A DNA stretch of 64,000 nucleotides from Rufibacter glacialis. GTDB lineage: Bacteria > Bacteroidota > Bacteroidia > Cytophagales > Hymenobacteraceae. Positions 13,867 to 16,829 of this stretch are shown piece after piece. The notes beneath the pieces are model-generated. The model searched no databases. It was not told where the DNA came from and was given only the letters and a program-made list of their open reading frames with translations. The position numbers were made by a program, and so were the translations under genes. Numbering within the stretch: position 1 is the stretch's first letter; each line of letters begins with the position of its first letter. The stretch is taken from positions 124,001 to 188,000 of the forward strand of contig NZ_VKKZ01000019.1 in assembly GCF_008271745.1 (NCBI RefSeq), in the 5' to 3' direction.

Positions 13867-13905
13867 ATGTTTGATTTGTCTGGGTAATACCTTGATTGTC
13901 CTACC
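13867..13905 (+). promoter_or_regulatory. AraC/XylS-type operator of pckA
   Basis: Two direct half-sites, GATTTGTC at 13873-13880 and GATTGTCC at 13894-13901, are 21 bp apart start to start. The block starting ATGTTTGATTTGTCT and continuing through GTAATA and GATTGTCCTACC is nearly identical to one upstream of catB (16763-16801). The second half-site starts 31 bp before the -7 box, where an activator would contact RNA polymerase. Binding by the AraC-type protein at 15860 is inferred. Confidence 0.65.
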
Positions 13906-13924
13906 AGGCAGGGAGGTAACGGGG

Positions 13925-13932
13925 TAAATTTG
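13925..13932 (+). promoter_or_regulatory. pckA promoter -7 box
   Basis: TAAATTTG matches TAnnTTTG exactly. No TTG lies at the usual 20-bp spacing; the nearest is 26 bp upstream in the operator, consistent with an activator-dependent promoter. Confidence 0.6.
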
Positions 13933-13953
13933 TTTAATGCCAGCAGGTAGAGT

Positions 13954-13966
13954 GAGTGATCACTTA
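13954..13966 (+). promoter_or_regulatory. GAGTGATCACTTA element in the pckA leader
   Basis: The same 13 bases occur in inverted orientation at 16840-16852 in the catB leader. Its core AGTGATCACT is a perfect palindrome, located just after the predicted transcription start. Possibly a second operator shared by both promoters. Confidence 0.5.
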
Positions 13967-14026
13967 TGCAATTGCGTTTTGCTCCTCTGGCCTACCCATG
14001 TTCCACCCAACCCTAATTACCTGCCT

Positions 14027-15634
14027 ATGAGAAATCATGAGAGAAGAACGACTGCCGTTGAGGCCCTGCTGCGCCAGGAGAACCCGCGCGTGTTCTGGAA
14101 TTTGAGTCCGGCAGAATTGGTGGAGGAAGCCCTGAAGAATGGAGAAGGCACCCTCGCTGATACGGGCGCTCTGGTGTGCAGCACGGGCGCGTTTACGGGC
14201 CGTTCCCCTAAAGACCGGTTCATTGTGCGGGATGAGAAAACAGGAGATACCGTGTGGTGGAGTGAGATCAACCAGCCGTTTGCCCCCGAAGCGTTTGACC
14301 GGCTTCTAAACAAAATGACCGCTTTCCTGCAAGGGCAAACCCTGTATGTGCGGGATGCCTACGCCGGGGCCCACCCAGACTACCGCCTGAACCTGCGGGT
14401 GATCAACACCCACGCCTACCACAATCTTTTCTGCGCCAACCTCTTTCTCCGGCCCACGCTGGAAGAGTTATCAAACCAGGTACCGGAGTTCACCATTCTC
14501 TGCGCGCCTGACTTCAAAGCTAATCCCCAGGAAGACGGCACCCGGCAGGAAAACTTCGCTGTGATCAACCTCAGCCAGAAGCTCATCCTGATCGGTGGTA
14601 CCGCCTACACCGGTGAAATGAAGAAAGGGATCTTCTCGGTGCTCAATTATCTGCTGCCCCAGGAACACGGGGTGTTGTCTATGCACTGTTCGGCCAACGT
14701 GGGGGAGGCGGATGACACCGCCATCTTCTTCGGGCTTTCCGGTACCGGCAAAACCACCCTTTCCACAGACCCGCACCGCCGCCTGATCGGGGACGACGAA
14801 CACGGCTGGACTCAGGACAGTGTCTTCAATTTTGAAGGCGGCTGCTACGCCAAAGTGATCGACCTTACCCGCGCCCAGGAACCTGAGATCTGGGACGCCA
14901 TCCGGTTTGGGGCCATCGTGGAGAACACCAACTTCCTGCCCGGTACCCGCACCGTAGACTACACAGACAGTTCCCTCACCGAGAATACCCGTACCGCCTA
15001 TCCTATCCACCACATTCCGCAGGTGATGGTGCCTTCGCGGGCGGGTACCCCGAAGAACATCTTTTTCCTGACCGCTGATGCCTTCGGTATTCTGCCGCCC
15101 ATCTCCCGCTTGAACCCCAGCCAGGCCATGTACTACTTCATCTCTGGGTATACGGCCAAAGTGGCGGGTACCGAGGTAGGCGTAACCGAACCAAAAGCCA
15201 CGTTTTCGGCCTGTTTTGGCGAAGCCTTCCTGCCTCTGCACCCAGCCCAGTACGCCCAGCTGCTGGGAGAGAAGCTGGAGGCTCATGACGTGAATGTTTG
15301 GCTCGTGAACACCGGCTGGACGGGCGGCCCCTTCGGCGAAGGTACCCGCATGAAGCTGAGCCACACCCGGGCCATGGTTTCGGCTGCCTTGAACGGGGAC
15401 TTGGAGGAAGTGACTTATATAGAGCACCCGGTGTTTGGGGTAAAAGTGCCCCAGACCTGCCCTAGGGTACCGGCCATCGTCTTAAACCCCAGAGACACCT
15501 GGACTGACAAGCGGCAGTATGACCTCAAAGCGCAGGAACTGGCCGCCCTTTTTGTGCGGAATTTCCAAAAATACGCCGCAAACGCCAGTGACGCCATCAA
15601 AGCCGGCGCGCCGCTGGTGGCCGAGACGGTGTAA
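14027..15634 (+). CDS. pckA: ATP-dependent phosphoenolpyruvate carboxykinase
   Basis: 535 residues from ATG 14027 (MRNHERRTTAVEALL), matching the roughly 540 of E. coli PckA; an upstream in-frame ATG at 13937 lies in the leader next to the -7 box and is rejected. Signatures: STGAFTGRSPKDRF near the N-terminus, the phosphate-binding GLSGTGKTTLSTDP near residue 240, the metal site GDDEHGW, and the adenine-binding region near the C-terminus. It converts oxaloacetate plus ATP to PEP, the first step from the TCA cycle into gluconeogenesis. It is followed by the aromatic-catabolism regulator and shares its operator with the catB operon, which fits growth on benzoate. Confidence 0.96.
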   Translation: MRNHERRTTAVEALLRQENPRVFWNLSPAELVEEALKNGEGTLADTGALVCSTGAFTGRSPKDRFIVRDEKTGDTVWWSEINQPFAPEAFDRLLNKMTAFLQGQTLYVRDAYAGAHPDYRLNLRVINTHAYHNLFCANLFLRPTLEELSNQVPEFTILCAPDFKANPQEDGTRQENFAVINLSQKLILIGGTAYTGEMKKGIFSVLNYLLPQEHGVLSMHCSANVGEADDTAIFFGLSGTGKTTLSTDPHRRLIGDDEHGWTQDSVFNFEGGCYAKVIDLTRAQEPEIWDAIRFGAIVENTNFLPGTRTVDYTDSSLTENTRTAYPIHHIPQVMVPSRAGTPKNIFFLTADAFGILPPISRLNPSQAMYYFISGYTAKVAGTEVGVTEPKATFSACFGEAFLPLHPAQYAQLLGEKLEAHDVNVWLVNTGWTGGPFGEGTRMKLSHTRAMVSAALNGDLEEVTYIEHPVFGVKVPQTCPRVPAIVLNPRDTWTDKRQYDLKAQELAALFVRNFQKYAANASDAIKAGAPLVAETV

Positions 15635-15733
15635 AGATGTTAGCTGGCCGGAAGAAATCTTTACCTGTTTCTCTCAGGCAGAATGCGTAGTTTGACAATG
15701 GAGGTTGGTGTCTGGAAATCCTTCTTTCAGGGG

Positions 15734-15797
15734 TAACGGCTGGTAGTGCTTTGGGGCTATTTTTCAGAAAACACCCCAAAAGCACTACCAGCCGTTA
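15734..15797. repeat. 64-bp long hairpin with a family A core, upstream of the AraC-type gene
   Basis: Outer arms TAACGGCTGGTAGTGCTTT (15734-15752) and AAAGCACTACCAGCCGTTA (15779-15797) are complementary and enclose a family A core, GGGGCTATTTTTC/GAAAACACCCC. Paired length is about 24 bp. It could terminate pckA transcription or act in the leader of the regulator. There is no long T-run on the plus strand. Confidence 0.7.
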
Positions 15798-15859
15798 TAG
15801 GAGGGAGAGCAGCTGGTGCGTTAGAGGGAAGGCACCGTTTTGCCTTTCGCGGAAAGAAT

Positions 15860-16753
15860 ATGCAGAAGAAGTTTTACAAGGGGCTTTACGGCACAGACTC
15901 CATTGAATTCGCCAAAGGCCTGATCAACATCCATCCGTTTGGGGAGATTGGGCGCAGGAACGACGGGCAGGTGAAACCGCACGCCCACAACAACCTGTTC
16001 CAGATTTTTCTGGTGGAGGCTGGGGCCACGGAACTGCAATTCGGGCAGCAAAGAATCCCGGTGGAAGGCCCCGCTTTTTTGGCTGTGCCCAAGAACGTGG
16101 AGCACGGGTTCAGCCACCGCTCGCACGTGTCTGGCTGGATCATCACGTTGGCCGATACCGTGCTGGAGCACATGTTGCAGCGCGAGGCCGAGGTGGTCTA
16201 CGCCATGGATGAGATTTACCTGATTCCGGTGAAGGAAGAAGATGCTGCCGCCACGGAGGCCTATGCGCTCATGCAGAAATGCGTGGCGGAGTACCGGGCC
16301 CAAAACCCCGGGCGCCTCTTGATGCTACAATATTTGGTGGGCCAGATGCTGGTGCAACTCTACCGCATCTCCCTGCGCGACCACCAGGCGGTGGCCTCCG
16401 CTGACAACGTGAGCAAGGTCTATTACCGTAGGTTCCAGCAGTTGCTGAAGGCCGGAAGTTCCTATAAGAAAAGTGTGGAGCAGTACGCCAAGGACCTTAA
16501 CATCTCTACCGGGCACCTCACCCGGGTTTGCCGCAGCGTCTCCGGGAAATCGCCCAAAGACATCATCATTGACTACGTGATCACTGAGGCGCAACTGGCT
16601 CTTTCAGATATTGAAAAAAGTGTGTCAGACATCTCGTTCGGGTTAGGGTTTGATGACCCGGCCTATTTCACCAGGTTGTTCCGGAAACGTACCGGCCTCA
16701 CGCCAATGGCCTTCCGCAAGCAGATAGGGGTGAAGAAACCTCTGTCCCCTTAG
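15860..16753 (+). CDS. AraC/XylS-family transcriptional regulator of the aromatic cluster
   Basis: 297 residues from ATG 15860, preceded by GGAAAG; the frame extends further upstream only through a repeat. The N-terminal cupin-like sensor (VKPHAHNNLFQIFLVEAGATELQFG, then GPAFLAVPKNVEHGF) resembles PobR/HpaA-type regulators of aromatic degradation. The C-terminal double helix-turn-helix (about 190-290) includes VEQYAKDLNISTGHLTRVCR and VSDISFGLGFDDPAYFTRLF. It sits between pckA and catB, whose promoters share direct-repeat half-sites with a 21-bp period, the spacing known for XylS sites. I infer an activator responding to benzoate, muconate or a related acid. Confidence 0.85.
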   Translation: MQKKFYKGLYGTDSIEFAKGLINIHPFGEIGRRNDGQVKPHAHNNLFQIFLVEAGATELQFGQQRIPVEGPAFLAVPKNVEHGFSHRSHVSGWIITLADTVLEHMLQREAEVVYAMDEIYLIPVKEEDAAATEAYALMQKCVAEYRAQNPGRLLMLQYLVGQMLVQLYRISLRDHQAVASADNVSKVYYRRFQQLLKAGSSYKKSVEQYAKDLNISTGHLTRVCRSVSGKSPKDIIIDYVITEAQLALSDIEKSVSDISFGLGFDDPAYFTRLFRKRTGLTPMAFRKQIGVKKPLSP

Positions 16754-16762
16754 CGCCGCACA

Positions 16763-16801
16763 ATGTTTGATTTGTCTTAGTAATAGACCGATTGTCCTAC
16801 C
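16763..16801 (+). promoter_or_regulatory. AraC/XylS-type operator of the catB operon
   Basis: Half-sites GATTTGTC (16769-16776) and GATTGTCC (16790-16797), 21 bp apart, as at pckA. From the conserved ATGTTTG to the -7 box is 59 bp here and 58 bp at pckA. Downstream of the AraC-type gene and upstream of catB. Confidence 0.7.
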
Positions 16802-16821
16802 CATCAGGTACCAGAGCCGGC

Positions 16822-16829
16822 TACATTTG
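16822..16829 (+). promoter_or_regulatory. catB operon promoter -7 box
   Basis: TACATTTG is an exact TAnnTTTG match; the nearest upstream TTG is 27 bp away inside the operator, so a basal -33 element seems to be missing. Confidence 0.65.

Follow-up and report, generated by a model that had tools for sequence, protein, structure and literature searches.

Gene content of the locus

The window analyzed here, the whole 64,000-nucleotide stretch between positions 124,001 and 188,000 (forward strand) of the Rufibacter glacialis contig NZ_VKKZ01000019.1, contains a gene for a second ATP-type phosphoenolpyruvate carboxykinase (PEPCK), hereafter pckA2, a gene for an AraC-family regulator and an operon for benzoate and catechol breakdown. 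Starting at 14027, the gene order is pckA, araC, catB, catC, catA, benABC, a benD-like gene, pcaD, a fused pcaIJ, a FUSC-like gene, a thiolase gene and tetR. A first-pass annotation, made from the sequence, had noticed that the pckA and catB promoters share a site and had proposed that PEPCK is part of an aromatic regulon; the observation was confirmed, and the interpretation as a whole is partly supported. The two promoters, pckA2 and the regulator gene comprise the following features (window coordinates).

13868 to 13903, + strand: putative AraC-regulator site at pckA2 (TGTTTGATTTGTC...GATTGTCCTA), from pattern match, family co-occurrence and rank 2 with a held-out matrix
13925 to 13932, + strand: -7 box TAAATTTG of pckA2, 52 bp after GATTTGTC, with no TTG at -33
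13951 to 13966, + strand: TetR-type operator AGTGAGTGATCACTTA in the pckA2 leader, from matrix score
14027 to 15634, + strand: pckA2, second ATP-type PEPCK, 535 aa (TIGR00224, 737 bits, cut-off 590.05)
15860 to 16753, + strand: AraC-family regulator, 297 aa, with a cupin-like N-terminus and HTH_18
16764 to 16799, + strand: putative AraC-regulator site at catB, from pattern match, family co-occurrence and rank 1 with the held-out matrix
16822 to 16829, + strand: -7 box TACATTTG of the cat/ben operon
16828 to 16885: 25-nt inverted repeat with two TetR-type operators (16836-16854 and 16856-16874) in the catB leader

A rare site shared by the pckA2 and catB promoters

The nearly identical blocks reported before pckA and catB are present where described, and both contain the 29-bp pattern GATTTGTCNNNGTAATANNNNGATTGTCC without mismatch (13873-13901 and 16769-16797). 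Allowing up to three mismatches, this pattern had no match across 100 shuffles of the window, and a scan of the whole genome (5,321,321 bases) recovered the window pair only (two forward matches, none reverse and none for the control). In the genome-wide motif search suggested by the annotation, no good copy of the site apart from this pair is found in the 5.3 Mb. With the middle of the pattern left free, 19 extra genome matches were obtained versus 43 (21 and 22) for the reversed-pattern control. Moreover, a site matrix was trained on the catB promoters of 20 relatives, with the window and Botryobacter excluded; over all window positions, this held-out matrix placed 16764 first (48.6 bits) and 13868 second (33.2 bits), with the third place at -0.3. 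Chance as the origin of the pair is ruled out by the shuffles, the genome scan and the middle-free control.

The distribution of regulator and site was surveyed in 204 genomes of the Hymenobacteraceae, the regulator being counted at E ≤1e-60 and the site in its 24-base version with at most three mismatches. The regulator is present in 22 of the 204 genomes, the site likewise in 22, and the two genome lists are identical; the reversed site pattern matched once (G202). Those genomes hold 23 sites, 21 before catB and two before a pckA, so that the spread over many unrelated promoters, named by the annotation as its refutation, does not occur. In two genomes (G201 and G218, loci L212 and L222) araC lies about 2 kb off and the site still stands with catB. 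The co-occurrence, a fixed distance to the -7 box (see below) and a second organism with a site-bearing pckA support the proposal of one AraC-family regulator for both promoters, and a single such protein probably acts at both. Some other DNA-binding protein could own the site, with the neighboring AraC gene being incidental: the direct repeat is weak, since the self-similarity of the site matrix at 20 bp (4.11) is little above the values at 14 bp (3.13) and 17 bp (2.97). The shared presence of gene and site in the same 22 genomes, however, makes this very improbable.

The regulator was compared within 14 close loci (L050-L063), taken from 80 loci of 382 relatives, the other 66 being about 24-32% identical. 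All 16 members have the AraC-type helix-turn-helix (PF12833 and PF00165), and 12 of the 16 match Cupin_2 and 7 of the 16 AraC_binding. The XylS-type N-terminal domain, which we take to be PF14525, was found in none of the 16 at E up to 0.01. The best NCBIfam resemblance is to the HpaA equivalog TIGR02297, at 143.4 bits and below its cut-off of 274.65. A structure model (pLDDT 78, pTM 0.56, from a 16-sequence alignment) retrieved nearly exclusively AraC-family or cupin folds among the 50 structure matches listed, none of which hints at the inducer. Plasmid carriage of the regulator was rejected: three plasmid records were recovered, each below 31% identity. In another genome (G020, locus L049, 7743-10450), an AraC-type gene of 30% identity lies divergently beside the only pckA, and the shared AraC site is absent from that locus.

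Promoter geometry and half-site spacing

The -7 boxes start 58 bp (pckA2) and 59 bp (catB) from the block starts, reproducing the distances given in the annotation, and at the family level the distance from GATTTGTC to TAnATTTG is 52 bp at 20 of the 23 sites and 53 bp at the remaining three. The good TAnnTTTG box without a normally spaced TTG, described for both window promoters, is a property of all 23 sites, none of which has a TTG 17-23 bp upstream of the TAnATTTG box. A half-site abutting the -33 region at a promoter without TTG is the usual activator layout. In Flavobacterium psychrophilum the TAnnTTTG box is placed at -12 to -5 (PMC9723704), and so the site would span approximately -69 to -34, its proximal end adjoining the -33 region. 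Such a position would suit activation of a promoter whose -33 element is weak. Activation is not proven by position alone, and the AraC protein might act as a repressor or dual regulator; yet none of the 23 promoters has a TTG at -33 and the proximal half-site abuts that region, and we regard such a role as quite improbable.

The annotation had described two GATT half-sites 21 bp apart and likened them to XylS, for which, as for BenR, we assume a repeat period of 21 bp. This register is found in both window blocks, but not as a family rule, since it occurs at only 2 of the 23 sites, namely the window pair; the spacing from the TC to the TCC element is 20 bp in all 23, and the matrix self-similarity at 21 bp is 0.37. 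For XylS/Pm of Pseudomonas putida, PMC4225500 and PMC5481539 describe an AraC-family activator of an aromatic pathway with its proximal site by -35/-33, and PMC4225500 gives the direct repeats as TGCA-N6-GGNTA. The system described here is like XylS/Pm in regulator family, aromatic pathway, direct repeats and a proximal site next to -35/-33. It is unlike XylS in its conserved 20-bp spacing, in lacking TGCA-N6-GGNTA at all 23 sites (each scanned on both strands from 30 bp upstream to 90 bp downstream) and in lacking the XylS-type N-terminal domain, and on these three grounds an XylS-type site is ruled out. We also know of no PEPCK target of XylS.

A second shared element: TetR-type operators

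In both window promoters the -7 box is followed by TetR-type palindromes, one at pckA2 and two at catB, which the annotation had not remarked. A matrix built on the catB leaders of 20 relatives places the three window operators on top (15.7, 14.9 and 14.4), with the next place, 38122, close at 12.3. With a tighter matrix, the pckA2 operator scores 21.3, a value matched by none of 1424 random 430-bp windows (mostly coding). The operator accompanies 22 of the 23 AraC sites and is missing only at the Botryobacter pckA2. TetR scoring of pckA upstreams covered 49 stretches from 48 genes, and the housekeeping pckA of the same genome (L179) falls outside the eight best scores. A candidate owner of these operators is encoded at the operon end:

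27804 to 28352, + strand: TetR-family regulator (PF00440)

The cat-cluster comparison comprised 16 loci from 15 genomes (L046 and L059 belong to one genome), and of the 15 distinct relatives that have araC and the cat cluster, 9 have tetR at the operon end. It was not found in the examined locus of G044 and of five Pontibacter; those five (of 14 Pontibacter/G016 genomes with the cat cluster) keep the operator. The operon-end TetR protein would most likely own the operators. Other TetR-type operators in the R. glacialis genome, searched with up to two mismatches, did not exceed the background (13 matches versus 16 in the control). A one-mismatch TetR-type operator was observed at positions 1501-1515 of L024 (G000:C19:678177), 18 bp upstream of the ATG that opens an unrelated 399-aa gene.

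pckA2, a second and probably dedicated PEPCK

The catalytic motifs of pckA2 are intact by alignment to 1j3b (P-loop GLSGTGKTTLS, KK pair, LIGDDEHGW), the roles of these residues being those we presume from general knowledge. The genome has two pckA genes, the window copy and one on contig C19 (G000:C19:269692), and all 15 congeners checked have one each. In trees, the C19 gene, regarded as the housekeeping one, clusters with the single pckA of the congeners. Thus, of the proposal that PEPCK belongs to the aromatic regulon, the site shared with pckA stands, but the gene concerned is a second paralogue and not the sole PEPCK of the cell. No AraC site was found in the 400 bp upstream of the housekeeping gene (L179), whose control through this site is ruled out on that ground; over all 46 pckA genes scored besides the two site-bearing ones, the best score in the 400 bp upstream was -4.5 bits versus 44.5 and 48.4.

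The second organism with a site-bearing pckA is Botryobacter ruber. It also has two pckA genes, the extra one directly behind araC with the site between them; the site has one mismatch to the window pattern and the box TAAATTTG follows at 52 bp. In the pckA tree, the window copy and the extra copy of Botryobacter are sisters with support of 99/97 (48 rows) and 100/96 (26 chosen rows), and a grouping of both Botryobacter copies is rejected only at p 0.0349. The pckA2 site could in principle be an inert relic of local duplication or recombination. The two promoters lie in one cluster, 2.9 kb apart, and the araC-site-pckA2 order of Botryobacter is a circular permutation of the window order, as recombination between the sites might yield. 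We nevertheless consider a relic extremely improbable, because pckA2 has retained the spacing to the -7 box, the lack of a TTG at -33 and the TetR-type operator despite differing surroundings, and the same element precedes pckA2 in Botryobacter.

The catechol and benzoate operon

The operon encodes catechol ortho-cleavage and benzoate dioxygenation, with catA, catB, catC, benA and benC all over the cut-off of their models.

16904 to 18025, + strand: catB, muconate cycloisomerase (TIGR02534 over cut-off)
18029 to 18325, + strand: catC, muconolactone isomerase (TIGR03221 over cut-off)
18378 to 19304, + strand: catA, catechol 1,2-dioxygenase (TIGR02439 over cut-off)
19438 to 22302, + strand: benA, benB and benC, benzoate 1,2-dioxygenase (TIGR03229 and NF040810 over cut-off; PF00866)
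22477 to 23262, + strand: benD-like short-chain dehydrogenase, named by position (PF00106)
23299 to 25524, + strand: pcaD and fused pcaI-pcaJ CoA-transferase (TIGR02427, TIGR02429 and TIGR02428 over cut-off)
25846 to 27677, + strand: FUSC/ArAE-like membrane protein and thiolase, the latter presumably pcaF (PF13515; conserved gene order)

At the thresholds used, benA, benB and benC were found in none of the 19 related loci examined (loci only). The description of the target as a benzoate operon therefore fits the window, where cat and ben genes stand together, but not the loci of the relatives, which hold the catechol branch. Lying between catA and pcaD, benABC looks like an addition to the cluster in this genome. 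Since the related loci lack benABC, a metabolite of the catechol branch, e.g., cis,cis-muconate, would be a more plausible inducer than benzoate itself.

Proposed circuit and the evidence weighed against it

The computed results, namely the sites with their geometry, rarity and co-occurrence, the second paralogue and the shared TetR-type operator, lead us with fair confidence to a circuit in which an AraC activator, probably together with a TetR repressor, would govern both catechol/benzoate breakdown and a second PEPCK dedicated to it. In this circuit, binding, activation, the inducer, the identity of the repressor and the physiological role are predictions. The 36-bp element would be the operator of the AraC regulator encoded between its two targets. 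Bound as a dimer at about -69 to -34, the regulator would recruit polymerase to the catB-operon and pckA2 promoters in the presence of the inducer, while a TetR-type repressor, most likely the operon-end one, would silence both promoters in the absence of substrate by binding shortly after each start site. A pathway compound, either the aromatic or a ring-cleavage product, would then induce ring cleavage and the PEPCK step together. Benzoate carbon enters as succinyl-CoA and acetyl-CoA; this carbon would pass to sugars with the help of PckA2, and the housekeeping pckA would stay outside the circuit. The cell could thus probably turn on sugar synthesis along with use of the very substrate that calls for it.

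Several observations weigh against this circuit. Regulator and site adjoin in most genomes, and part of their co-occurrence is thus common inheritance. The 12 named Pontibacter genomes counted have a single pckA each, without the AraC site, so the PEPCK control is not general. G044 is a more distantly related genome that has a regulator of 38% identity, a cat cluster and two pckA genes (C2:600132 and C1:878904), but no element common to catB and either pckA upstream was found there: the best 30-mers shared 20 and 21 of 30 positions, with shuffles (four each) at 19-22 and the window control at 24. The sister placement of the two pckA2 is also not firm: both genes sit on long branches, an origin of the window copy within the genus is rejected only narrowly (p 0.0498), the tree without the Botryobacter row leaves the position of the window copy unsettled, and the window protein is 72-73% (maximum 73%) identical to the single pckA of congeners versus 67% to the extra copy of Botryobacter. 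As for the TetR-type operator, the single pckA upstreams of G026 (29.3) and G014 (14.1), both genomes without the AraC protein, beat all 1424 random windows. The upstream of the G026 gene (L146) carries the operator AGTGAGTGGTTACTTT, the same as in Pontibacter catB leaders, shortly after a -7-like box, which hints that pckA may have come under TetR-type control separately from the present circuit.

A further point comes from Botryobacter ruber, where no catB orthologue was found (best 29%) and PF00775 (intradiol dioxygenase) had no match, versus two matches in each of four other genomes with the same search. As Botryobacter keeps the regulator and pckA2 together with no such genes found, the regulator-pckA2 link need not depend on the ortho-cleavage pathway, and benzoate or an aromatic is a candidate signal. 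Either the regulator answers another signal there or the cat genes were lost. The AraC regulator might accordingly sense a general gluconeogenic or organic-acid signal, with pckA2 as the older or an equal target and the catechol operon recruited to it, which would also agree with the missing TetR-type operator in Botryobacter. Against this, 20 of the 22 regulator genomes carry the site at catB alone; in the regulator tree, the Botryobacter protein falls within the catB-linked regulators, if weakly supported (82/78), as a loss of the cat genes would lead one to expect; and Botryobacter may use aromatic routes beyond the reach of the catB and PF00775 searches. Overall, we judge a general signal unlikely, and coupling to the aromatic pathway remains our preferred reading.

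Going further, and only tentatively, pckA2 may represent a separate PEPCK lineage with a dedicated role, which moves between genomes along with an AraC regulator and operator of its own and so forms a portable gluconeogenesis cassette, placed within the catechol operon in the window and alone in Botryobacter, where it would answer a signal other than ortho-cleavage. If true, such a cassette would provide a pathway-specific return of carbon to sugars and leave the housekeeping pckA untouched.

Comparison with known systems

Central enzymes such as PEP carboxykinase are generally expected to follow global carbon signals, whereas the extra copy in this locus seems to be tied straight to a single catabolic pathway by two types of site. 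Pathway-specific PEPCK control is already known in kind: in the nearest published case met, IolR of Corynebacterium glutamicum reportedly concerns the regulation of pck and of myo-inositol genes (going by the title of Klaffl et al. 2013), so that there, too, the regulator of a substrate pathway would control a PEPCK gene. It differs in that IolR is of the GntR family, in another phylum and linked to inositol, whereas the locus described here has an AraC-type regulator with a TetR-type operator, a second paralogue and an aromatic pathway. PobR and HpaA are AraC-type regulators of hydroxylated aromatics; the window regulator is like HpaA in its resemblance to TIGR02297 (143 bits) and its cupin-like N-terminus, and unlike it in scoring far below the cut-off and in its linkage to a catechol/muconate operon and pckA2. 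Literature searches among open-licence papers turned up no report of PEPCK in a benzoate or catechol regulon or of these Pontibacter genes, and no precedent for an aromatic cluster whose second, dedicated PEPCK is under AraC-type control and has a TetR-type operator. The nearest is a table in PMC7764795 in which pck appears next to a phenol monooxygenase among the indole-responsive genes of C. glutamicum.

Relatives that have the operon without the second copy, together with a relative that has the second copy and in which no operon was found, form a natural comparison set, with which one can test directly whether bacteria attach a gluconeogenic step to particular diets. In addition, the locus offers a clean, sequence-defined pair of regulator and site for Bacteroidota. 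To our knowledge, few activator sites have been mapped in this phylum.

Further features of the locus

Between pckA2 and araC lies a near-perfect hairpin of 22 bp (15733 to 15797, -44 kcal/mol), which is without a T-run and present in a single copy in the window. Finally, pcaI and pcaJ are fused into one frame of 455 aa at 24157-25524, and a match of similar length was observed in relatives with the cat cluster.

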